A DNA stretch of 59,035 bases from a virus: IMG/VR virus record IMGVR_UViG_3300015245_000041, positions 1 to 59,035 of that record. One strand, given 5' to 3'. The notes beneath the pieces were generated by a model that ran no database searches, was not told the origin of the DNA, and was given only the letters and a program-made list of their open reading frames with translations. The translations under genes and the position numbers were made by a program. Below are positions 3,940-23,564 of the stretch, piece after piece (position 1 is the first letter of the stretch; the number at the start of each line of letters is the position of its first letter).

Positions 3940-4374
3940 ATGTTGATGCCCATAGCTGAAGGTGCTGTAGCTACTGGTAGTATTTGGGGAGTAATCGGTC
4001 TTATTGTTACGGGATTGATCGGATTAGGAACAACCCTGGTCCAAGATCGTCGAAGACGACGAGAGGAACTCGAAGATAAGGGTTCCATACAGCCCAAGCA
4101 TGCGGAACGAAGTTCTGAAAGGATTGCTGCAACAACTGCTAGTAATGAAATCTTGGGATACTTAACTGAGCATATCATAACTCCTTTACGTAATGACTTA
4201 GAAGAAGCTCGGAAGAAAATTGAAGAACTTCAGACTCAAAATGCCCGTAAAGATGAACAGCTTAACGAAGCTCATGCTCTGGTGAGAGATTTGAATGTTA
4301 AGATTATCTCGTTTCAGGCTCAGGTTGCTATCTTGTTAGAGCAACTAGGAGGTGTTAGAGATGACCGAGGATGA
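3940..4374 (+). CDS. Small membrane protein with coiled coil, lysis cassette (DUF2746-like)
   Basis: 144 aa, with ATG at 3940 or 3946. One N-terminal membrane segment (about residues 12-32, 'IWGVIGLIVTGLIGLGTTLV') is followed by a strongly basic stretch (RRRRREEL) and then a long charged coiled coil (about 65-140). This layout resembles the DUF2746-type proteins of actinophage lysis regions. It precedes the collagen-like, hydrolase and holin-like genes and overlaps the next start by 14 bases. It may be a holin-associated or anti-holin protein; that is inference from position and topology. Confidence 0.6.
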   Translation: MLMPIAEGAVATGSIWGVIGLIVTGLIGLGTTLVQDRRRRREELEDKGSIQPKHAERSSERIAATTASNEILGYLTEHIITPLRNDLEEARKKIEELQTQNARKDEQLNEAHALVRDLNVKIISFQAQVAILLEQLGGVRDDRG

Positions 4375-5152
4375 AGGCTTGGATTTGATTCAGGAAGTCC
4401 AGAGCCATGTTGATAAAGAAATTATTCCCAATGCAACTAGAACTGCTAGATTAGCGGTTATTCAACAAAGAAGACGTCGAAGAATTATGTGGGGTATTCT
4501 CTTCGGCATAGCCACTATAGCTCTCATTGTAATCTTTGAAGCTCAAGTTCTTCACGCTAGTAGTCTTCAAACAGGTAAAAATAAAGCCGAAAGTTCAGCT
4601 ACTTCTAATGGTGCTATAGTTAGTGCACAAGCTCCTGTAATCCAAAATGGTCAGGCAGTTGCGAGCTCTGTTACTAAAGTTTGTCAATCAGCCTCTGGCC
4701 GTGTTATATTACGGAAGATAGGTATTTCTTGTTCTCAGGCTTCGGTAGTAGCTACTGCTACACCCAGTATTCCTTCAGCGGGGCTCCCAGGAGCGAATGG
4801 GGCACAAGGACCTCAGGGACTTCAGGGTATCCCAGGAGCACCCGGAGCTCAAGGTATCCCTGGAGGACCAGGTAAACCCGGACCATCTGGACCTACAGGT
4901 GCATCCGGACAGACTATCACTGGTCCAGCAGGGGAGAATGGAGAGCAGGGTAGTACTGGACCTATGGGACTTTCTGGTGTTAACGGTAAAGATGGGGTTA
5001 ACGGAGTTGATGGCAAAGATGGTGTTAATGGAACAAATGCCCCCACAATCGTGGGAGTAAAAGAAGATATGGGGACATGTATGATTACTCTTACTCTATC
5101 TGATAATAGTGAAATCAGTGGACCTATTACTGGCACTTTGACGTGTCCCTAG
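4361..5152 (+). CDS. Membrane-anchored collagen-like repeat protein
   Basis: 263 aa from the ATG at 4361, chosen because a perfect AGGAGG lies at 4347-4352. A cytosolic head (about 1-42, ending RRRR) leads into one membrane segment (about 44-64, 'GILFGIATIALIVIFEAQVL'). An outer linker follows, then about 28 Gly-X-Y triplets (about residues 138-225, e.g. 'GPQGLQGIPGAPG' and 'GKDGVNGVDGKDG'), and a short C-terminal cap with two cysteines. Collagen-like triplets occur in phage fibres, but a type II membrane anchor in a lysis operon is unusual. It could be a wall-spanning spanin-like rod, a surface-display protein or a virion fibre. Confidence 0.8.
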   Translation: MTEDEGLDLIQEVQSHVDKEIIPNATRTARLAVIQQRRRRRIMWGILFGIATIALIVIFEAQVLHASSLQTGKNKAESSATSNGAIVSAQAPVIQNGQAVASSVTKVCQSASGRVILRKIGISCSQASVVATATPSIPSAGLPGANGAQGPQGLQGIPGAPGAQGIPGGPGKPGPSGPTGASGQTITGPAGENGEQGSTGPMGLSGVNGKDGVNGVDGKDGVNGTNAPTIVGVKEDMGTCMITLTLSDNSEISGPITGTLTCP

Positions 5153-6424: not shown

Positions 6425-6836
6425 TTTAACTTACATTCTATTCATCTACACCTGTTTCATCCTAGCCCCTATCAGTTCGTTTGCTGATACAGTAGATACT
6501 CGAACTGGTCCTTTAGTAGTTTTTGGTATCGTAGTAGATACAGCCTTTATGCTTGCTTTGATTACTGGTACTATCATTCCTCTAGTGTCTTCTTTGCTTA
6601 GTAAAACCCATTGGTCATCGGGAGTTACTGGAGTTATCACTATGGCTTTAGCGGCGATTAGTGGATTCTTTACAGAGTGGGCTCAGTCTTCAAATGCCAG
6701 TCACTATGACTGGAAACATGCTGTACTTATTGCTATCGGTACTCTTCTTATGGCATTCTTAGGTCGTAACGTAGCTTGGAAGGGTTCCAAGACTGATGCC
6801 AAATTGTTGGCGATTGGGTCGGGTAAAGTAGCATGA
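6399..6836 (+). CDS. Holin-like membrane protein
   Basis: 145 aa (ATG at 6399; ATG 6405 also possible, preceded by GAGGTGA). The N-terminus looks like a signal or anchor sequence ('LTYILFIYTCFILAPISSFA'). Two or three further membrane segments follow (about 42-66, 74-95 and 109-127), and the tail is basic. Size, topology and location between two putative wall hydrolases support a holin that opens the membrane for the lysins. It overlaps the upstream gene by 26 bases and the downstream peptidase by ATGA. It could also be a general phage membrane protein. Confidence 0.65.
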   Translation: MKMRLLLRSLTYILFIYTCFILAPISSFADTVDTRTGPLVVFGIVVDTAFMLALITGTIIPLVSSLLSKTHWSSGVTGVITMALAAISGFFTEWAQSSNASHYDWKHAVLIAIGTLLMAFLGRNVAWKGSKTDAKLLAIGSGKVA

Positions 6837-7828
6837 CAGAATCTGCCTATGGCATTCATGATCATTCTCAACTCAAGCTAGGTAAACAACCACCGGATCC
6901 AACTCGAATGGCTCGAGCTATCAAGATGGCATCGTTCATCGATGTCAAGGCAGTAACTCAGCAAATCGAATATCACCCCCCCACCGATGATAACTATCTG
7001 CAGTACCTAGATGCCAACAAGTCATTTGGCTTGTATGGCAATAATAACTTCGGGGTCTGCGGCCCAACAATGATAGCTAATGGTCGACGACTTAGTAGTT
7101 TTCTCTCAGGTTCATATGATGAGCCCACACAAGACGATGTCTTTGATCTCTATCGTCGTTCTGGGAACCCCAATTTTGACCCTATTACTGGTGCCGATGA
7201 CAAGGGTGTCAACAACCAGACGATGCTTGAGCAAGCACTCAAAACTGGGTTTGGGAAAGATATTGAGGGCAATGAGCGAGAGCTTGTAGCTTTTGCTCAG
7301 GTCGATCACGGTAACCTAAATGAACTTCGAGTCGCAATCTATAAGTTCGATTACGTTTGTGTGGGGGTTGTACTTGATACTGCTCAACAGGATCAGTCTG
7401 ATGGCAGTAATCCCACGTGGAGTTATGTTGATTCATCCACTTGGGGTGGTCACGATATTCTTGTAGCTAAGTATGATTCAGATAGTGCAGTTTGTGTATC
7501 ATGGGCTTTGTTTATTGATATGCTAGATAGCTTTATGTCTCGACAAATGGATGAGGCTTGGGTTGTTATCTGGCGAGATCAGTATGACAAACTGACTGAT
7601 GGGGAGAAAGTAGCATTAGCTCGTGAGTTTGAAGTCGCTACCGGCAAACCCTTTCCCCTCATTCAACCCGATCCCGAGCCCAGTCCAACTCCCTTTACTA
7701 ATCTGGATTTGGAATTGGTTAAAAAAATTGCTGCATCTGGATTCTTAGGGCAGAGTCATCATAAGCCAGCTAATGATGTGGCTCATGCTCTCATGCAATG
7801 GATGATTGCTAAGGGATATGTAAGTTGA
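6833..7828 (+). CDS. Putative cysteine peptidase-like endolysin component
   Basis: 331 aa. The N-terminal 240 aa suggest a papain/C39-like fold: a nucleophile segment 'NNFGVCGPTMIANG' (Cys near residue 64) and a downstream His segment 'STWGGHDILVAKYD' (about 203-216) followed by a core Trp. A C-terminal region (about 275-331) contains a proline-rich linker and a helical module. Position directly after the holin-like gene supports peptidoglycan peptidase activity complementing the DUF1906 enzyme. The catalytic assignment is from motif shape only. Confidence 0.6.
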   Translation: MTESAYGIHDHSQLKLGKQPPDPTRMARAIKMASFIDVKAVTQQIEYHPPTDDNYLQYLDANKSFGLYGNNNFGVCGPTMIANGRRLSSFLSGSYDEPTQDDVFDLYRRSGNPNFDPITGADDKGVNNQTMLEQALKTGFGKDIEGNERELVAFAQVDHGNLNELRVAIYKFDYVCVGVVLDTAQQDQSDGSNPTWSYVDSSTWGGHDILVAKYDSDSAVCVSWALFIDMLDSFMSRQMDEAWVVIWRDQYDKLTDGEKVALAREFEVATGKPFPLIQPDPEPSPTPFTNLDLELVKKIAASGFLGQSHHKPANDVAHALMQWMIAKGYVS

Positions 7829-11948: not shown

Positions 11949-14450
11949 TCAGAACGGAGGTTCTGCTATGGCATCGAGTCCTTGCCAATCATAAACGAAG
12001 TTTGGGTGTAGCTCCTGAGCATCTCCCCAGTGATGACCCGCTTTAAGGTCAGCAATGATGGGTATAGTCAGGTTAACTCCGAACTTTTGCCTGAGGATAC
12101 TAACATCTTCCATAGTATCTTTGATTATGGGGAGGGCTGCTCGAACGTAATCTTTTCGGATTTCATAGTTGATTGCGTCATGCACGAGTCCCAGACAATG
12201 ACCTCTGATCCCTTCTTCACGGAAACGCCTATTAATCTCAACCATAGAGATGACAGCCATATCGGAAGCAAAACCCTGAACTGGGCTATTGATTGCTTGC
12301 CGTTCTGCTTCAGCACGAACTCCGGGGTCAGGGGAATAGATATCCGGTAGGTGACGTACTCTACCGAGGGGTGACTGTACTCTACCGTGCTCTGTAACGA
12401 GACGTCGTTGTCGAGCGTGCCAAGTGAGTAACCCAGGGTAGAGGTCAAAGAATACCTTTCTAGCATTTCTAGCACCATCCTCATCGTAGATTACTCCATA
12501 CTTCACAAAGGCTGTGTGGATGAATTTTCTCCATCCCATGCCATAGACAAATCCAAAGTTAATTGCCTTGGCTTTCTTTCTCATATCTTTAGTTACTTTG
12601 GATATGGGGACTTGTGCGTCTCGAGCTGCGGTGGTTAAGTGGATATCTGCACCTTGTTGGTAAAGCGAGATCATATGTCTTTCTCTAGCAATGAAAGCTG
12701 CTATTCGGAGCTCGATCTGACTATAGTCAGCTTCAATGAACACCCATCCGGGTGGCGCTCCAAATAAGCCTCTAATAAAGGGATCTCTAGGTACCTGTTG
12801 GAGGTTGACCCCTCTAGCTCGCCCTCTAGTCCCAGAAATTTTATCTTCATCTGCTTTCCCGGAGGAAAGTCGTCCAGTAACTGTTCCTGCGAGCTTGAAG
12901 TTAGTGTGAATACGATGATTCTCGTCGTAGAGTTCTTCGTAGGCATTGAAAAAACTCGAGATAGCTTTCTGCCACTCAACTCGGTCGAGCATGAATTGGA
13001 CTGCTGGGTGGATTTCCTTGAGTTCAAGGAGAATATCTTCTGCCATAGAAGGTGCTCCAGGCGACCCATCTGCTTTCTCCTTACCTCTCGCGAGAATAGG
13101 TAATTTTAAGTGTTCGAAGAGGAACCATCGCGCGAAGTTGCTTGCGTTGAAATTGATTGTCGAGATTCGGTTCTTAGCATCAGTCGGCCAACTAGGGTCA
13201 TCTTCTGCTGGAAGGAATTGTTTAATCTTGGCTTCAATTTCTTCAAGCTTACTGATAGCTTTTGGTTTCCTGTCTTTAAGTCTTTTAACATCTAACCAAA
13301 TCCCTCGAAGTTCAGAATGTACGAGCTCAGCATTAGCTGGCATAATTTCCAGCATAAAGAGTCTAAGGAGTCTAGGTTGTTTAGTTAGTTCTTCCTTAAG
13401 CTGTTGCTTGATCAAGTACATATACCAGGTATCAAGTACATTGTAATCTAAGACCTCTTTGATGGGCATGTTGAGAAGATCTTTGGTATCTACTCCCCAG
13501 GGTTCCACACCAAGCCTAGCTTGACCTTGAGGTTTCAGACCCTTCTGGATATTCTCGTTGAGCAAGTGAATTGCTAGCAAAGTATCGAACGTGACGGTGG
13601 TTGGGCAGTCGAAAGTTCTCATCCATTTTTCGTCGTACTTGCCGTTATGTGCAACAACTTTCTTGATTTTGCCGATGACCGGCGCCAAGAATTTAAGTAC
13701 AGACCGCCAAGTCTTTCTGAAGGGTGACTCCGGATGATATAGCGGGAGCGCGAACACGAATAGCTTAATTCCACCTGTTGTTCGAATTTCGCAAGTAGCA
13801 CTAAGAGAGATGATTCGTCCATCCGGTTTCCATTCCTCACTATGCGTTTCCACATCGAAGTCAAACTCAACACAATCTTTGAGAATGGTTCTTAGTTTTT
13901 TGAGCTTGTCCGGGGTATCTATGGTATGATACTTAGGCTTTCTAATCTTAGCTTCCCTACCCTGTACCTTATTTGAGAAGAGTAGCAGTTCGGCCATATA
14001 GCCGGGGCGTTGCCCGGGATTGCGATTCACGGCGCTTGGGGATATCGTAGGGATTACGGAAATGCCCGATCGATCAATTACCCGCCCTCGATATTTAGTA
14101 ATCCCAGAATGTCCGGTGGTTGCAAGCAATGCCTCATTACCAAAGGCGAGAATGTAGTCAGGTTCCACCTCCTCGATCTCTTGCTCCAGATAGGGACGAC
14201 AGGCTTTAACGTCAATGGGACTTGAGCTCTGATCGAAGTTTCGGCATTTTAATGCTTGCGTGTAATATACACTATCAAGAGGAAGACCAGCGTCAAGAAG
14301 ATCAGCTTCAAGATTAGCCTGGAACTTATCGCTATTAGGCATACGGCCCACAACCATAACTTTAGCTTTCTTAGGCCCAAAGCCAGGGACACATACATCG
14401 ACTGCCTCTCTGTGAAGCTTGCAATTGGTACAGTTAGGATTTGAGATCAT
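11949..14450 (-). CDS. DNA polymerase I family (polA-type) with N-terminal UDG-like domain
   Basis: 833 aa. Residues 1-165 resemble family 4 uracil-DNA glycosylases: four Fe-S-type cysteines at 7, 10, 69 and 84, 'KVMVVGRMPN' and 'ILAFGNEAL'. The usual motif 'GExPG' is changed to 'GRMPN' and the 'HPS' motif to 'SPS', so glycosylase activity is doubtful. Residues about 195-400 hold a 3'-5' exonuclease with D-x-E ('FDFDVETHS'), 'VVAHNGKYDEKW' and 'YNVLDTWYMYL'. The C-terminus holds Pol A motif A ('EADYSQIELR'), motif B ('KKAKAINFGFVYGMG') and motif C ('LVHDAINYE'). It is the replicative polymerase, with an intact proofreading site. Start overlaps the upstream gene by 17 bases. Confidence 0.95.
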   Translation of the reverse strand: MISNPNCTNCKLHREAVDVCVPGFGPKKAKVMVVGRMPNSDKFQANLEADLLDAGLPLDSVYYTQALKCRNFDQSSSPIDVKACRPYLEQEIEEVEPDYILAFGNEALLATTGHSGITKYRGRVIDRSGISVIPTISPSAVNRNPGQRPGYMAELLLFSNKVQGREAKIRKPKYHTIDTPDKLKKLRTILKDCVEFDFDVETHSEEWKPDGRIISLSATCEIRTTGGIKLFVFALPLYHPESPFRKTWRSVLKFLAPVIGKIKKVVAHNGKYDEKWMRTFDCPTTVTFDTLLAIHLLNENIQKGLKPQGQARLGVEPWGVDTKDLLNMPIKEVLDYNVLDTWYMYLIKQQLKEELTKQPRLLRLFMLEIMPANAELVHSELRGIWLDVKRLKDRKPKAISKLEEIEAKIKQFLPAEDDPSWPTDAKNRISTINFNASNFARWFLFEHLKLPILARGKEKADGSPGAPSMAEDILLELKEIHPAVQFMLDRVEWQKAISSFFNAYEELYDENHRIHTNFKLAGTVTGRLSSGKADEDKISGTRGRARGVNLQQVPRDPFIRGLFGAPPGWVFIEADYSQIELRIAAFIARERHMISLYQQGADIHLTTAARDAQVPISKVTKDMRKKAKAINFGFVYGMGWRKFIHTAFVKYGVIYDEDGARNARKVFFDLYPGLLTWHARQRRLVTEHGRVQSPLGRVRHLPDIYSPDPGVRAEAERQAINSPVQGFASDMAVISMVEINRRFREEGIRGHCLGLVHDAINYEIRKDYVRAALPIIKDTMEDVSILRQKFGVNLTIPIIADLKAGHHWGDAQELHPNFVYDWQGLDAIAEPPF

Positions 14451-14745
14451 CGTAGTCCTTGAAGGTCAAATTGATGAAATGCGGAAGTCGTTCGTCAAAA
14501 GAAGCTACTACGCAACCTTCACCCCCAATGAAGTTGGTGTGTAACATGTTAGCTAGTCGTCGCCATGTCATCATTTTGTCTTTGAGCTGTGAGCATTCAG
14601 GTCCAGGTGCTCCATGCTTAACTGCATCCTCCCATTGTACATGAGCATTGTTTTCCCAAGCACGGTATTGTTTAATATACTTTTCAATCTTAGCTCGAGC
14701 CCAAGCTAGAGCTTCGGGATCACTGTCGAACTTGGAATCAGTCAT
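14434..14745 (-). CDS. Small conserved-style protein between dCMP deaminase and polymerase
   Basis: 103 aa, helical, beginning with an acidic segment and 'ALAWARAKIEKYIKQYRAWE'. No family recognised. It overlaps the deaminase stop by four bases (ATGA) and the polymerase start by 17, so it is co-translated with replication genes. Confidence 0.65.
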   Translation of the reverse strand: MTDSKFDSDPEALAWARAKIEKYIKQYRAWENNAHVQWEDAVKHGAPGPECSQLKDKMMTWRRLANMLHTNFIGGEGCVVASFDERLPHFINLTFKDYDDLKS

Positions 14746-15212
14746 GGTGATACCTTATCATCCTTTGCTACTCTCATCAATACCTGTCGGAATAGGGTCA
14801 GACCACCCATGTCTCGATGATTCTCTCGATAGATTACCCGTCCAATACCCGCATTGATAATAAGCATGGCACAAGTTGTGCACGGTATGCGTGTTGTGTG
14901 GAGTTCAGTATCCTGGAGAGCTACACCATGTCGAGCGGCGAAAGCTATGGCGTTTGCTTCAGCATGTACTGATATGGTACAATACTGACCTGCTGGACAA
15001 TTAGTATCATGTTTAGGAGAACTTTGACCTATAGAACAATTGCAAGTATGGTCACAGTGATCAATGCCAGCAGGAGCTCCATTATAACCTTGTACCAGGA
15101 TTCTGCCGTCTCGGGATATGACACAACCTACATGAGCTCGTGAGCAGGTAGATCGTTCGGACCATATTCGAGCAGTCCTCATGAGAAGATCATCTCGTTG
15201 GGGTCTATCCAT
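14742..15212 (-). CDS. dCMP deaminase
   Basis: 156 aa from the ATG at 15212, which overlaps the TAA of the upstream gene; an in-frame GTG at 15221 is unlikely. The zinc site is intact: 'VHAEANAI' (His83, Glu85) and 'PCTTC' (Cys111, Cys114). An extra Cys/His-rich insertion ('DHCDHTCNC') is typical of phage and ComEB-type dCMP deaminases. Reaction: dCMP to dUMP plus ammonia, feeding dTMP synthesis and lowering dCTP. It lies in a nucleotide cassette with two ThyA-fold proteins, a kinase and a pyrophosphohydrolase. Confidence 0.95.
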   Translation of the reverse strand: MDRPQRDDLLMRTARIWSERSTCSRAHVGCVISRDGRILVQGYNGAPAGIDHCDHTCNCSIGQSSPKHDTNCPAGQYCTISVHAEANAIAFAARHGVALQDTELHTTRIPCTTCAMLIINAGIGRVIYRENHRDMGGLTLFRQVLMRVAKDDKVSP

Positions 15213-16075
15213 TAGTACCACGAATCCTTATAGAGATTAGGATGAGTTGCTCCAATAGCATCTTCTGCTGAATGCCTAGCTTCAATAAGAGGTACATCCC
15301 CAACAAAGAGGTGAAGAGATGAGATATGCATGAGTAAAGTACCGGGTTCAGCTCCAATCTTGCCAGCGACCCATTGCCCCAATCTCATGGTCATATAGAT
15401 ATCATCTGAGAAATGGCGAACGAAGTCACAACTACGAATGAAATATGTAACATCAAGTATTCCATCTCGTTGTAAGAAATGATATCCTAGACTACAGGGA
15501 ATTCGTTGTCCGTCTCTAGCACCCGTGTCTTCTGGGAAGAAGACTGGTAAGTAAGCTTGACGAGTAAGAGGATGTTGTTGGAGTTGAACCACAACATCGT
15601 TAAGATCACCATATTCATAACGAATTCCCATGTGTGGTACCCAGATTTGTCGTCCATTTGGGGCTTTGTTTCCTACATTGGCGTATCGTGGCCAGTATCG
15701 TTCGGGGTACGTGTGAGAAAACTTCTCACCTTCTTTATGACGGGCATTGCTTTTGACTGCGTAAGGCCACCATGCCTCACTGGGGGGAGGATTCATAGGT
15801 TCCCCCACAACCCGCTCTTGGAATTGATCTTCCGCCCAAGGTAAATTAGCACCAAGAGGACCAGCTAAGTCCTCTTCAAGTTGGTGGTCTGGGGGAATAG
15901 GAATCTCCAGAATTACATGTGCGAGTTCTTTAGAAACTAAAGTGGGATTATCCGAAACATCCTGAGCATGCCATTGATCTACTGGAACAGGCGGGGCTTT
16001 GAGTAAACTTAGCTCTAGCTTATGCTTTATGGCATCGAATTGATGAATAGTAGCAGCCTCGTAGTGAGTTATCAT
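15212..16075 (-). CDS. Thymidylate-synthase-fold protein, candidate dCMP hydroxymethylase/methylase
   Basis: 287 aa. ThyA landmarks are in order: 'RQAYLPVFFPED', catalytic Cys in 'RIPCSLGYHF' (Cys194), 'YFIRSCDFV' (R214-S-x-D217), 'FSDDIYM', and 'LHLF' (His255, with Phe257 in place of the usual Tyr). Ungapped alignment from the RSxD motif puts Asp225 at the position of E. coli TS Asn177, which selects dUMP. The T4 dCMP hydroxymethylase has Asp there, and the same Asn-to-Asp change turns TS toward dCMP. So dCMP is the likely substrate. Direct neighbours: dCMP deaminase downstream and a second ThyA-fold gene upstream (ATGA overlap). An ordinary ThyA cannot be excluded. Confidence 0.75.
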   Translation of the reverse strand: MITHYEAATIHQFDAIKHKLELSLLKAPPVPVDQWHAQDVSDNPTLVSKELAHVILEIPIPPDHQLEEDLAGPLGANLPWAEDQFQERVVGEPMNPPPSEAWWPYAVKSNARHKEGEKFSHTYPERYWPRYANVGNKAPNGRQIWVPHMGIRYEYGDLNDVVVQLQQHPLTRQAYLPVFFPEDTGARDGQRIPCSLGYHFLQRDGILDVTYFIRSCDFVRHFSDDIYMTMRLGQWVAGKIGAEPGTLLMHISSLHLFVGDVPLIEARHSAEDAIGATHPNLYKDSWY

Positions 16076-17043
16076 TCAGTAATCTCCAAAGGGAGCCCAA
16101 GGCATCGGAAGTCTAGGGTATTGATCGGTATTGAAGGTAAAGGGTCATAGTGTTTGAAGAACTCCTTAGGTTCCCCCTCATTGTCATAACTCCAGCCAGC
16201 AAAACTTTTAGCTTTCTCCACACCAAGAACTTCAGCATGCCACCGTCGACGAATGCGGCGATAGGTGTTATAGGTCATGTCACCATAGGTGAGACCGTCT
16301 GCATCCTCCTGCATAACTTTGCGAAGCCATTTACGACTAAGTCTAAGTGCAGGAGAGTTACGGATGTGATCTTGCTCTGTATCACCAAGCTTGGACAAGG
16401 GCTTGATCAAAAGTCGTCGGTAGAAGGTACGCATTTCGACATTGGGATTACTGAGCAAGAATGCCAGTGATTTGAAGTTGTGCCACTGAATCGACTCGTT
16501 GTACCAGACAAACTTGAAAGTAGATACATCCACATCCATCTCGTTGGCAAGGTAACGAGCTACCATCCAGGCGACTGATAAATCCAGTGCACCGATGTAC
16601 CCTAAGTAAGAAGTGCGACTGTGCAAACTGATTGTCGGTGTGGGAAGTGCTTTGTAGCTGATCGTCAGCATGCACGAACCCCAGCGGCGCGATTCCCGAT
16701 TCGTATGGCCTGTAGCTGCACCACCACGGGGCTTCACTATCTTGGTTCTTATGACGGCTGTACCCCGGCCATCTAATCCAATCTTCGATGGTACTGCTTC
16801 GATCCATGCCTCCAACTCTCCTGGGTCCAGATACTGACGGCACATCATTGTCCATCGAGACTTAGTCAACCACATAGACTTTAAATCAAAATCCCAATCC
16901 ATGCTATTAGTTGAGGCTATGATGCCATGTCTCTGAACATCAACAGTAGTTACCATATCTACTTGATCTAGACTAGCAGTAACTAAAGACTCGCACATCT
17001 CTTCATGTAGTTTGGTTAGCGTAGGTGCTTGATAAGTATACAT
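16072..17043 (-). CDS. Second, divergent thymidylate-synthase-fold protein
   Basis: 323 aa. It is more diverged but retains the core order: 'RRWGSCMLTISYK' (Cys124 at the catalytic position), 'PTISLHSRTSYLG' (Arg143 at the RS position), 'GALDLSVAWMVARYLA' with Asp154 exactly 11 residues after Arg143, again at the Asn177 position, and 'WYNESIQWHNF' where TS has its H-x-Y segment. The Asp of RSxD is Tyr here. This suggests a pyrimidine-nucleotide-modifying enzyme or a non-catalytic partner of the neighbouring ThyA-like protein, with which it overlaps by four bases. No close named family recognised. Confidence 0.6.
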   Translation of the reverse strand: MYTYQAPTLTKLHEEMCESLVTASLDQVDMVTTVDVQRHGIIASTNSMDWDFDLKSMWLTKSRWTMMCRQYLDPGELEAWIEAVPSKIGLDGRGTAVIRTKIVKPRGGAATGHTNRESRRWGSCMLTISYKALPTPTISLHSRTSYLGYIGALDLSVAWMVARYLANEMDVDVSTFKFVWYNESIQWHNFKSLAFLLSNPNVEMRTFYRRLLIKPLSKLGDTEQDHIRNSPALRLSRKWLRKVMQEDADGLTYGDMTYNTYRRIRRRWHAEVLGVEKAKSFAGWSYDNEGEPKEFFKHYDPLPSIPINTLDFRCLGLPLEITE

Positions 17044-17315
17044 TAGTCTGGGTAGTGTACCCTTTCTATGTTATCATCTCTCCAAGACTTCATAGCCTCA
17101 CGGATACTATGCAGTTCTTGAAGGAAGTCAGGACTACTAGGTCCATAGTTTTTAACTTGAGCAATGTAGTAATTCAGAGTCGGAAGGGCGAAGATATCTT
17201 TAGCTCGAATAACGAAGACGGGCTCATCCCGTTCATCAGCTTTGTTAAGGATATCTTGAGCAGACTTAGAAGTCTTGGCCTTACTATACGGAATTCTATA
17301 CGGTCGATTTGTCAT
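17043..17315 (-). CDS. Small protein inside the nucleotide cassette, unknown
   Basis: 90 aa from the ATG at 17315, preferred over 17327 because AGGAGCGAG lies just before it. Mixed alpha/beta composition ('DEPVFVIRAKDIFALPTLNYYIAQV', shown in part by 'VFVIRAKDIFAL'). No family recognised. Stop and next start overlap as TAATG. Its place between the pyrophosphohydrolase and the ThyA-like genes suggests a role in nucleotide handling; inference only. Confidence 0.65.
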   Translation of the reverse strand: MTNRPYRIPYSKAKTSKSAQDILNKADERDEPVFVIRAKDIFALPTLNYYIAQVKNYGPSSPDFLQELHSIREAMKSWRDDNIERVHYPD

Positions 17316-17880
17316 CTCGCTCCTCATCTACCTCATCCATAATATAGTCTTCCAAACAATCCATAGTACAGAAAGTTTTGTCAGGGTAATTAGTGTTCTT
17401 GCACCATCGCCACATGTCTGTCTGCTTTAGTTCCTTATGACATTGAGGACATTGTCTAACAATTTCCTCTTGGAACCATCCATAGATTCTAAGTAATCCC
17501 TCAATGTTAGGAGCTACCCAATCTGGGGGTTTAATAACATCATAGCTTGATCCTCGCTTAGAATTCCCGCCATTAGCGTTAGCTCTCTTTTTCTCCATGT
17601 TAGCTGTTTGTACAAGATTCCATCCCTGGACCCAAGGGTAACCCTTTAGGTGGGCAGTTCCATAAGCGACATAAGATAAATCTAGCAGTGCATCAAACAT
17701 ACCTGCTTCATCACCGATGGCGTAAGCATCTTCAAACTCTTGTATCTCTTCCTTAAGAAATTTGATTCTAAACGCCATTAGTGCTGGATCAACATCTCGA
17801 GGTCCAGGAGCAGAGTCTATGGTAGTATTATCTAAACCAAACTTATGGTGAAATAAACCCACATCGTGAAAGTCAGACAT
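17296..17880 (-). CDS. MazG/all-alpha NTP pyrophosphohydrolase with C-terminal zinc ribbon
   Basis: 194 aa. The all-alpha NTP-PPase signature is present: 'LKEEIQEFEDAY' (E-E-x2-E, about 43-54) and 'EAGMFDALLDLSYVAYGTA' (about 58-76) with metal-binding acidic residues, then 'VQTANMEKKR'. The C-terminal 50 aa hold a C-x2-C...C...C-x4-C ribbon ('CPQCHKEL', 'WCKN', 'FCTMDCLEDY'). The family hydrolyses (d)NTPs to (d)NMP plus PPi. Beside dCMP-acting enzymes it is a good dCTPase candidate, keeping dCTP out of DNA and supplying dCMP. Start overlaps the kinase stop by one base. Confidence 0.8.
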   Translation of the reverse strand: MSDFHDVGLFHHKFGLDNTTIDSAPGPRDVDPALMAFRIKFLKEEIQEFEDAYAIGDEAGMFDALLDLSYVAYGTAHLKGYPWVQGWNLVQTANMEKKRANANGGNSKRGSSYDVIKPPDWVAPNIEGLLRIYGWFQEEIVRQCPQCHKELKQTDMWRWCKNTNYPDKTFCTMDCLEDYIMDEVDEERDDKSTV

Positions 17881-18416
17881 TAGGTCCCCGTCTTTAAGAA
17901 GTAAATGATACTACTCAATATGTCATCACGAGTCTCAGGCTTAGTATAATCCCACACCGAGGTGGGTGTGTGGTAATGGTCGATGGCTGCTCGGACTCGG
18001 TAGTGGGCGTAGATTTGATCTATATCAGCTCTTACGGTCATATTAGTCTCATCTTGCCAGACATTTTTCTGTACTGTTTCAAGAGGAGGTAAGCAATAGA
18101 CGATATATGGCTGTCGACTGTAGAATATTCCTAGTTCCATAGCTAACCAGTCATAGCTATCAAATCCGGGAGAGGGAGTATTGGGTCTAAAAACTGCTCC
18201 ATAGATACATTCTGAAATTAATCTGTGCCGGTCATAAAGGACTCTCCCGTCATTACCTCGGTTATTATCATCTTCGACCCATTGTTTTAAGTCAACAGTA
18301 GTAGTCATATCTTCATTAACTACCTTAGGTTCTACTGTAAGACCTAGTTTCTGCTCAAAGACTCTGATAAGGCTGGTTTTGCCCGCACCATCCGGCCCTT
18401 CTACGATGATACTCAT
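17880..18416 (-). CDS. Deoxynucleoside monophosphate kinase
   Basis: 178 aa, thymidylate-kinase-like P-loop protein. Walker A is 'VEGPDGAGKTSLI' (residues 5-17), followed by 'VLYDRHRLISECIYG' (DR-type motif, about 80-94) and 'YIVYCLPP'. The LID region is short. It should phosphorylate dNMPs, possibly modified dCMP or dTMP, to diphosphates for the polymerase. Coupled to genes on both sides (ATGA and one-base overlaps). Confidence 0.85.
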   Translation of the reverse strand: MSIIVEGPDGAGKTSLIRVFEQKLGLTVEPKVVNEDMTTTVDLKQWVEDDNNRGNDGRVLYDRHRLISECIYGAVFRPNTPSPGFDSYDWLAMELGIFYSRQPYIVYCLPPLETVQKNVWQDETNMTVRADIDQIYAHYRVRAAIDHYHTPTSVWDYTKPETRDDILSSIIYFLKTGT

Positions 18417-22715: not shown

Positions 22716-23564
22716 CTAGTGGCGATGACCCACCTTACGTCCCGCAAAAAGCAATCCACACCCCAGGACCAAAGCCAGCAAAGCTGATGCTAGAAAGCCT
22801 CCAACATTGCGAGGTCCAGTAGAAGCTAGAACAGGCTGGGCAGCAGGGGTTTCAGAGTTGGCTTGCACAACTACTGCATGATGTGTAGTCTTGGCATGAG
22901 TAGTTACGGGTGCACTATGAGTAGATGCGGAGGTACTGGGGTTAGATACTGGAGTACTGCTACTCGGAGTGGGGGTGGGAGTCTCAACGGGGCATTTCTT
23001 ACCCGTAATGTCTCCAGCACTGCCATCTTGACCGTCATTGTTATTAGAAGCATCTATCCATTTCTCAGAACAGGTTGTATATGTCCAAATATACTCATGG
23101 CCTTCACCATTACACCACTCGCCACCGGAGGCCTTAACCAATTCCTGAAGCCAGGTGCTAGTAGTAGTATCTGCCGAGGGTGAGACTAAAGCATCTAGAT
23201 TCAGATTTTTAGCAATGAAAGTCCAGTCATAAGTACCGTGAACTTCCCCAGTTGTTCCCGCGGTGAGAGAAACACCATCTCGAGGTGATAGGCTAGCAAG
23301 AGTAGTTAAAGTTCCGTCATCGGAGATGGTGGCAGTATAAGTATCTTCTGCTGTGCGGCAAACATGTGTCTTTCGAGTCAAGATCAATGTAGCCCAATCA
23401 CCATGATGACCACTATCAGGCCTAGTAGTCGGTGTGGAAGTATCACCGCACTGACCGACAGTCTGAGTAAGGGGGGGTGTAGCACTTGCAGAAGAGGCAA
23501 AAGTTACCCATCCCAATGCCAGCAAAGTTGCAGTCAATACCGCAGTAATGAACTTATTTCTCAT
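22716..23564 (-). CDS. Secreted surface protein with LAxTG sortase signal
   Basis: 282 aa. Signal peptide: basic start (MRNK), hydrophobic core to about 25, cleavage near 'SASA-TP'. An ectodomain (about 30-195) has paired cysteines ('GQCGDT', 'HVCRT', 'EWCNG', 'TTCSEK', 'KKCPVE'). A Ser/Thr/Pro-rich stalk follows (about 196-240), then 'LASTGP' (LAxTG), a hydrophobic helix and a basic tail (GRKVGHRH). This is a complete cell-wall sorting signal, and LAxTG is the preferred motif of actinobacterial class E sortases. A phage-encoded wall-anchored protein suggests surface alteration of the infected cell, e.g. superinfection exclusion. Start overlaps the upstream stop (ATGA). Confidence 0.9.
   Translation of the reverse strand: MRNKFITAVLTATLLALGWVTFASSASATPPLTQTVGQCGDTSTPTTRPDSGHHGDWATLILTRKTHVCRTAEDTYTATISDDGTLTTLASLSPRDGVSLTAGTTGEVHGTYDWTFIAKNLNLDALVSPSADTTTSTWLQELVKASGGEWCNGEGHEYIWTYTTCSEKWIDASNNNDGQDGSAGDITGKKCPVETPTPTPSSSTPVSNPSTSASTHSAPVTTHAKTTHHAVVVQANSETPAAQPVLASTGPRNVGGFLASALLALVLGCGLLFAGRKVGHRH

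Follow-up and report, generated by a model that had tools for sequence, protein, structure and literature searches.

Which modified pyrimidine, if any, a phage makes with two neighbouring proteins of the thymidylate synthase (TS) fold is the question raised by an operon in IMG/VR virus record IMGVR_UViG_3300015245_000041. The whole stretch analysed, here called the window, is this single virus record of 59,035 bases, and the operon lies on its minus strand at positions 14742-18416, running leftward and adjoining a family A DNA polymerase gene (PolA). An earlier reading of the sequence (the original prediction) had proposed a phage T4-like pathway to 5-hydroxymethyl- or 5-methyl-deoxycytidine monophosphate (dCMP). 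We infer that the module modifies cytosine, which is strongly supported, and we put at roughly two in three the probability that the operon provides the phage with a modified deoxycytidine triphosphate for its DNA, by removal of dCTP, synthesis of 5-hydroxymethyl-dCMP by one of the TS-fold proteins (P0004), re-phosphorylation and incorporation by PolA. The genes, in their order on the minus strand, are as follows:

17880-18416, minus strand: P-loop deoxynucleoside monophosphate kinase-like protein, 178 residues (phrog_761 'thymidylate kinase', E=9e-17; P-loop matches in Pfam and NCBIfam only sub-threshold)
17296-17880, minus strand: all-alpha nucleoside triphosphate pyrophosphohydrolase (PRA-PH/MazG-like), 194 residues (PF01503, E=6e-10), with a Cys-rich C-terminal stretch
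17043-17327, minus strand: small open reading frame within the operon, 94 residues, without a convincing family score in Pfam or PHROG
16072-17043, minus strand: P0003, TS-fold protein by AlphaFold2 and Foldseek, 323 residues (PHROG of unknown function, 5.6e-106)
15212-16075, minus strand: P0004, TS superfamily, predicted dCMP 5-hydroxymethylase, 287 residues (PF00303, Thymidylat_synt, E=8e-7)
14742-15221, minus strand: dCMP deaminase, 159 residues, with a HAE...PCxxC zinc site (PF00383, E=8e-21; PF14437, E=3e-13; phrog_174 dCMP deaminase, E=2e-46)
14434-14745, minus strand: small open reading frame between deaminase and polymerase, 103 residues, without a family match
11949-14450, minus strand: PolA, 833 residues, with an N-terminus of the uracil-DNA glycosylase superfamily and a 3'-5' exonuclease (PF00476, E=4e-76; PF03167, E=2.5e-15; PF01612, E=5e-9)

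The kinase, the pyrophosphohydrolase, the two TS-fold genes and the deaminase stand beside the polymerase at the positions, on the strand and in the order originally described, and the families named for the pyrophosphohydrolase, P0004, the deaminase and the polymerase were borne out by the PF01503, PF00303, PF00383 and PF00476 matches. The 94-residue frame between the pyrophosphohydrolase and P0003 had been omitted; a frame of similar size (6545-6853) was found at the matching position in the related locus L002. Adjacent genes of the operon overlap by 1-32 nucleotides, with the stop of P0003 and the start of P0004 sharing ATGA.

P0004 scored 28.8 bits with PF00303 against a cut-off of 24.3. 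Its alignment comprised 160 sequences, for which the IMG/VR relatives were the best 80 of 447 matches, and residues are numbered here as in E. coli TS. The equivalents of Cys146, Arg166, Arg126, His207 and Asp177 were each found in 160/160 relatives, and Asn at position 177 in none, unlike canonical ThyA. Asp at this position is the published switch toward cytosine (PMC8670742; PMC5175136; PMC6400193). In the phenotype-selected metagenome of MetaGPA, positions 177 and 147 best separated the TS of cytosine-modified contigs from those of unmodified ones (PMC8670742); the His147 slot of P0004 was Thr or Ser throughout the 160 relatives. TS co-occurred there with PF01503, PF00383 and PF14437 in the modified contigs, and the window operon holds exactly this domain set. 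The MetaGPA clusters thus resemble the operon in their domains, in Asp177 and in the non-His residue at 147, but they often have an added carbamoyltransferase, which was not found in the window, and the P0003 family is unmentioned in the passages of the MetaGPA account that were consulted.

By sequence, the best solved relatives of P0004 were the Lactobacillus casei TS mutant N229D and the CMP hydroxymethylase MilA; with the P0004 profile, MilA ranked first and T4 gp42 was matched at E=1.4e-5. An AlphaFold2 model of P0004 (predicted local distance difference test, pLDDT, 87.9) was matched by Foldseek to the dCMP hydroxylase AfhB, MilA, TS and T4 gp42, with a probability of 1.00 for many TS structures. 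MilA shares with P0004 the TS fold, the Asp177 equivalent and the hydroxymethyl product predicted here, and differs in having Ala at the Ser167 site and preferring CMP; the residue at this site sets ribose versus deoxyribose (PMC5175136). As Ser was kept in 148 of the 160 P0004 relatives (Ala in 12), deoxyribose would be favoured over ribose by the MilA rule. Structure prediction and comparison with gp42 and ThyA agree with the original assignment of P0004 to the TS fold, at about 19% identity to gp42 and with a gp42-like short C-terminus. The claim that the 15212-16075 protein acts on dCMP and not on deoxyuridine monophosphate (dUMP) is likewise supported, as an inference from the invariant Asp177 and the matches to cytosine-nucleotide enzymes.

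A related operon has been published with a different product. In the Gordonia phage Azira (CT cluster), an operon-like arrangement with four matching gene functions was described as 'thymine synthesis' (PMC10353413), that is, deoxythymidine monophosphate (dTMP) made from dCMP by way of dUMP, and the adjacency of a dCMP deaminase and a TS-family gene would suit such a route in the window too. We consider it very improbable that the module merely makes dTMP, given the Asp at 177 in every relative, the fold and sequence matches to cytosine enzymes, and the additional ThyA or ThyX in relatives. In Microbacterium phage Huwbert (L008) three TS-fold genes are consecutive, one of the P0003 type, one of the P0004 type and one for a canonical ThyA that has Asn177, and two Manatee Spring phages with the P0004 type encode ThyX, so P0004 would not be the dTMP synthase of those phages. 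Unlike the published account of Azira, the P0003-P0004 pair and Asp177 in the sampled Gordonia phages GTE2 and Elinal point to cytosine modification. Regarding the product, TS-type enzymes are known to modify dCMP in three ways, giving hydroxymethyl (T4), methyl (Xp12) and flavin-dependent hydroxyl (RB69/HY126), the last being an option beyond the two originally considered. TS needs its C-terminal tail to seal the active site for methyl formation by hydride transfer, and T4 gp42 lacks this tail (PMC6400193). The tail, which closes over the folate, is also missing from P0004, with 32 residues beyond the His207 equivalent compared to 30 in gp42 and 56 in canonical ThyA. The Asp169 slot, Asp in T4 gp42 and Asn in RB69, held Asp in 155 and Glu in 5 of the 160 relatives. 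The kept Asp169 and the short C-terminus, both like gp42, favour hydroxymethyl, and 5-hydroxymethyl-dCMP is with moderate confidence the most likely product of P0004. Of the two originally proposed products, methyl is disfavoured on the same basis: an Xp12-type dCMP methylase, leading to 5-methylcytosine in the phage DNA, has a precedent in Xp12 itself (PMC5175136) and in TS Asn-to-Asp mutants that turn into dCMP methylases (cited in PMC8670742), but lacking the tail P0004 would be an improbable case of it. We also think it unlikely that either P0004 or P0003 hydroxylates dCMP at C5 with the help of flavin, in the manner of AfhB or the RB69 5-hydroxy-dCMP synthase, giving DNA with 5-hydroxycytosine that is possibly sugar-linked. 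These synthases belong to the TS superfamily (PMC13390438), AfhB of phage HY126 (9iqu/9iqc) is the best PDB fold match of P0003 and P0004 alike, with Asp177 and Cys in common, and the folate-binding Asp169 is lost from P0003 as it is from RB69. However, MilA and gp42 match P0004 almost as well as AfhB does, and the Asn of the RB69 sequence at the Asp169 slot differs from the Asp or Glu of all P0004 relatives and from the Tyr of P0003. Those synthases are also 234-238 residues long, with linked arabinosyl pathway genes, and genes for arabinose or another sugar pathway were not found in the window.

The second TS-fold protein, P0003, has no Pfam family; homology to P0004 was not detected by profile-profile comparison (hhalign), and PDB sequence searches returned nothing. 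The ThyA fold originally claimed for it was recovered from the predicted structure. The AlphaFold2 model, built from 94 relatives, reached a pLDDT of 94.3, with AfhB (9iqu) as the best Foldseek match (E=4e-6) and 38 PDB matches at E<=1e-3, of the TS fold throughout among the matches listed. The five best were all cytosine-directed (AfhB, MilA, AfhB, MilA and T4 dCH D179N). Three sites, Cys124, Arg143 and Asp154, had been chosen by visual inspection of the window sequence and of two divergent homologues, ahead of the alignment. They correspond to Cys146, Arg166 and Asp177 of E. coli TS, a correspondence based on the predicted structure and the secondary-structure register, and they were invariant in 94/94 relatives; the alignment contained five invariant residues, these three among them. 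The chance of three pre-named sites all falling among 5 invariant of 323 is 1.8e-6, a figure to be taken only as a guide. In both models the Cys directly precedes a strand, the strand after that carries the Arg close to its end, and the Asp is the fourth residue of the following helix. The next long strand ends two residues beyond His255 in P0004 and beyond Gln186 in P0003. Asp at the Asn177 site, originally noted in both proteins, thus holds for 160/160 relatives of P0004 and 94/94 of P0003. The same Cys, Arg and Asp are retained in a more divergent P0003 branch (A5), which occurs in Brevundimonas, Pseudomonas, Serratia and environmental phages. In one further locus (L048, 5962-7892) a tandem pair of P0003-type genes lies upstream of the P0004-type gene.

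The two proteins, originally treated as equivalent, are not so, in that P0004 keeps Asp169 and the folate-chemistry residues of P0003 are replaced. The Glu58 slot of P0003, the third residue of the helix that bears the Glu in P0004, was Arg in 82 and Lys in 12 of the 94 relatives; the Asp169 slot was mostly Tyr, as in the window protein, with Ser, Glu, His and others among the relatives. P0003 also has an additional helical C-terminal part. From the model, and given the invariant Cys, phosphate-binding Arg and base-reading Asp, P0003 has very probably kept the ability to bind a cytosine nucleotide; it has probably lost the folate chemistry and perhaps retains covalent catalysis. A protein lacking the folate-chemistry residues would probably carry out a follow-on or accessory step dependent on P0004.

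The two genes were found together in nearly all loci. With loci chosen by P0004, a P0003-type gene was recognised by profile in 70/80, and a divergent one lay upstream in four more and elsewhere on the contig in one; of the remaining five, one was clipped by the contig start and four were in possibly fragmentary records. With loci selected through P0003 or the divergent branch, P0004 was nearby in 120/124, three others ending at a contig edge and one, very divergent, being without it, so that the P0003 type occurred without the P0004 type in 1/121 assessable loci. In its occurrence P0003 thus depends on P0004, the reverse being less strict. Gln at the Arg127 slot, present in all 160 P0004 relatives, was considered as a mark of a heterodimer and dropped, as it occurs also in P0004 relatives without a detected P0003 and in a TS-family protein of Salmonella phage SFP10. 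The SFP10 protein has the stretch TRQAYL in common with P0004, yet Asn at 177; it comes from a genus with 5-hydroxymethyluracil-derived bases.

This dependence could mean that P0003 and P0004 form an obligate heterodimer, a single dCMP-modifying enzyme with P0003 as partner subunit. The genes are adjacent and overlapping, P0003 is hardly ever alone, and TS dimers share their active sites, with T4 Arg123/124 coming from the opposite protomer (PMC6400193). In a mirror-tree analysis of 82 loci, however, the partial correlation was -0.28 for P0003-P0004 as compared to 0.63 for P0003-PolA, a few records contain P0004 but no recognisable P0003 (all possibly fragments), and no Arg126/127-like Arg is kept throughout the divergent P0003 branch. 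We regard the heterodimer as rather unlikely. As the mirror tree speaks against tight co-evolution of the pair, we lean, weakly, towards a separate P0003 step that depends on P0004. A tentative form of this, which the model leaves as a possibility to which we give well under even odds, is that P0003 represents a folate-independent TS-superfamily branch whose step on cytosine nucleotides follows that of P0004. It might, for instance, activate 5-hydroxymethyl-dCMP covalently and attach a further group to it, so that a further-modified cytosine would be built at the mononucleotide stage, ahead of DNA synthesis. Separately, P0004 distances followed those of P0003 and PolA poorly in the 82 loci, as if P0004 moved from phage to phage more frequently than P0003 does.

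In the proposed pathway the all-alpha pyrophosphohydrolase, as a dCTPase, would strip host-made dCTP to dCMP. The Cys of P0004 would attack C6 of dCMP, a one-carbon unit from methylene-tetrahydrofolate would be placed on C5, and 5-hydroxymethyl-dCMP would be released. P0003 would either form a complex with P0004 or act next on its product. We propose that the P-loop kinase acts on the modified dCMP and begins its return to the triphosphate, which the neighbouring PolA would incorporate, while the dCMP deaminase would turn surplus dCMP into dUMP for dTMP made elsewhere. The kinase shares only the P-loop with the RB69 kinase, and relatives have a kinase-like gene in the same slot.

Compared to the T4 supply route (gp56, gp42, gp1, gpCd), P0004 resembles gp42 in the TS fold, the Cys nucleophile, the equivalents of Asp177, Asp169 and His207 and the absence of the C-terminal tail, and it is accompanied by an all-alpha dCTPase-type hydrolase, a dCMP deaminase and a nucleotide kinase. 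The window differs from T4 in the low identity of P0004 to gp42, in a PF01503 pyrophosphatase in place of PF08761 (gp56), in having all the genes in one operon, in the presence of P0003, which T4 lacks, and in that no glucosyltransferase was found in it. What stands of the 'T4-like' label is the overall scheme, in which dCTP is removed, C5 modified, the product phosphorylated again and dCMP deaminated; the relation is one of analogy only.

The module was found in phages of Mycobacterium, Gordonia, Streptomyces, Microbacterium, Brevundimonas, Pseudomonas and Serratia. The kinase, P0003, P0004, the deaminase and the polymerase were all present in 132/164 loci, which are not phylogenetically independent and include some contigs that fall in more than one set. 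The recurrence of the gene order in many unrelated phages argues against chance. PF08761, the gp56 family, occupies the pyrophosphohydrolase slot in Muddy, GTE2, Zuko, Shrew and Tlacuache; other relatives have PF01503 there, which suggests that the function was kept while the genes changed. Cultured phages with the module include Muddy (grown on M. smegmatis mc2 155), whose genes 47 and 46 are the homologues of P0003 and P0004, GTE2 (on G. terrae), Almagne and Tlacuache.

Several points weigh against modified DNA containing 5-hydroxymethylcytosine. The preference for this base over 5-methyl- or 5-hydroxycytosine depends on a missing tail and a small number of residues, in proteins that are about 20% identical. 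In the open-licence literature, the scope of all our statements on novelty, no report was found of a modified base in cultured phages that carry the module, including Muddy and other mycobacteriophages. A glycosyl- or carbamoyltransferase was not found in the window (carbamoyltransferase and GT2 being among the families searched), so that bare 5-hydroxymethylcytosine would lie open to attack by type IV enzymes, although genes without an assigned function are left. Neither ThyA nor ThyX was found in the window, a possibly incomplete genome, and dTMP would then have to come from the host. Balancing of nucleotide pools with no incorporation into DNA is possible. That the base enters virion DNA and helps the phage to evade nucleases, as originally proposed, is plausible.

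Cytosine-modifying TS homologues beside a dCTPase and a dCMP deaminase are known already from T4, Thanatos and MetaGPA, and the operon belongs to that kind. Shewanella phage Thanatos has a dCTPase, a dCMP deaminase and a predicted dCMP hydroxymethyltransferase/TS, and its modified cytosine was proven by liquid chromatography-mass spectrometry (PMC12838424). What appears to be new is, first, that many phages of actinobacteria, alpha- and gammaproteobacteria carry the module, which for at least one of them was published as thymine synthesis, and second, a seemingly obligate second TS-fold protein predicted to lack the folate residues. If correct, a cytosine-modification module would be shared by a large number of phages from soil and of actinobacteria, among them Mycobacterium phage Muddy, which has been used in phage therapy. 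Modified DNA would be predicted in phages already in culture, which bears on their restriction resistance and on how such phages are studied. P0003, with its nucleotide-handling residues kept and folate residues lost in the model, may point to chemistry undescribed for the well-studied TS fold.

Nucleotide searches among phages and plasmids gave no near relatives of the window, and a genome scan for a host gave only two contigs of metagenome-assembled genomes, labelled Polynucleobacter and Acidobacteria. In the PF03167 domain of PolA the motif is VVGRMPNSD where one of the GEAPG type would be usual, and this is perhaps a dead glycosylase domain; the PolA proteins of loci L001 and L002 have an N-terminus resembling it. 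Another TS-family pair was seen in Bacteroides phage BF503P4 (L168), with two annotated dCMP hydroxymethyltransferase genes in a short region and a dUTPase between them. Elsewhere in the window, a tail-fibre-like protein with collagen repeats (PF01391, E=1.9e-12) is encoded at 4352-5152 on the plus strand. At 22716-23564 on the minus strand lies a gene for a protein of 282 residues with a signal-peptide-like N-terminus, a Pro/Thr/Ser-rich middle and a C-terminal LASTG followed by a hydrophobic stretch and a basic tail, as in a sortase (LPxTG-type) signal; this phage-encoded protein is possibly anchored to the host wall.

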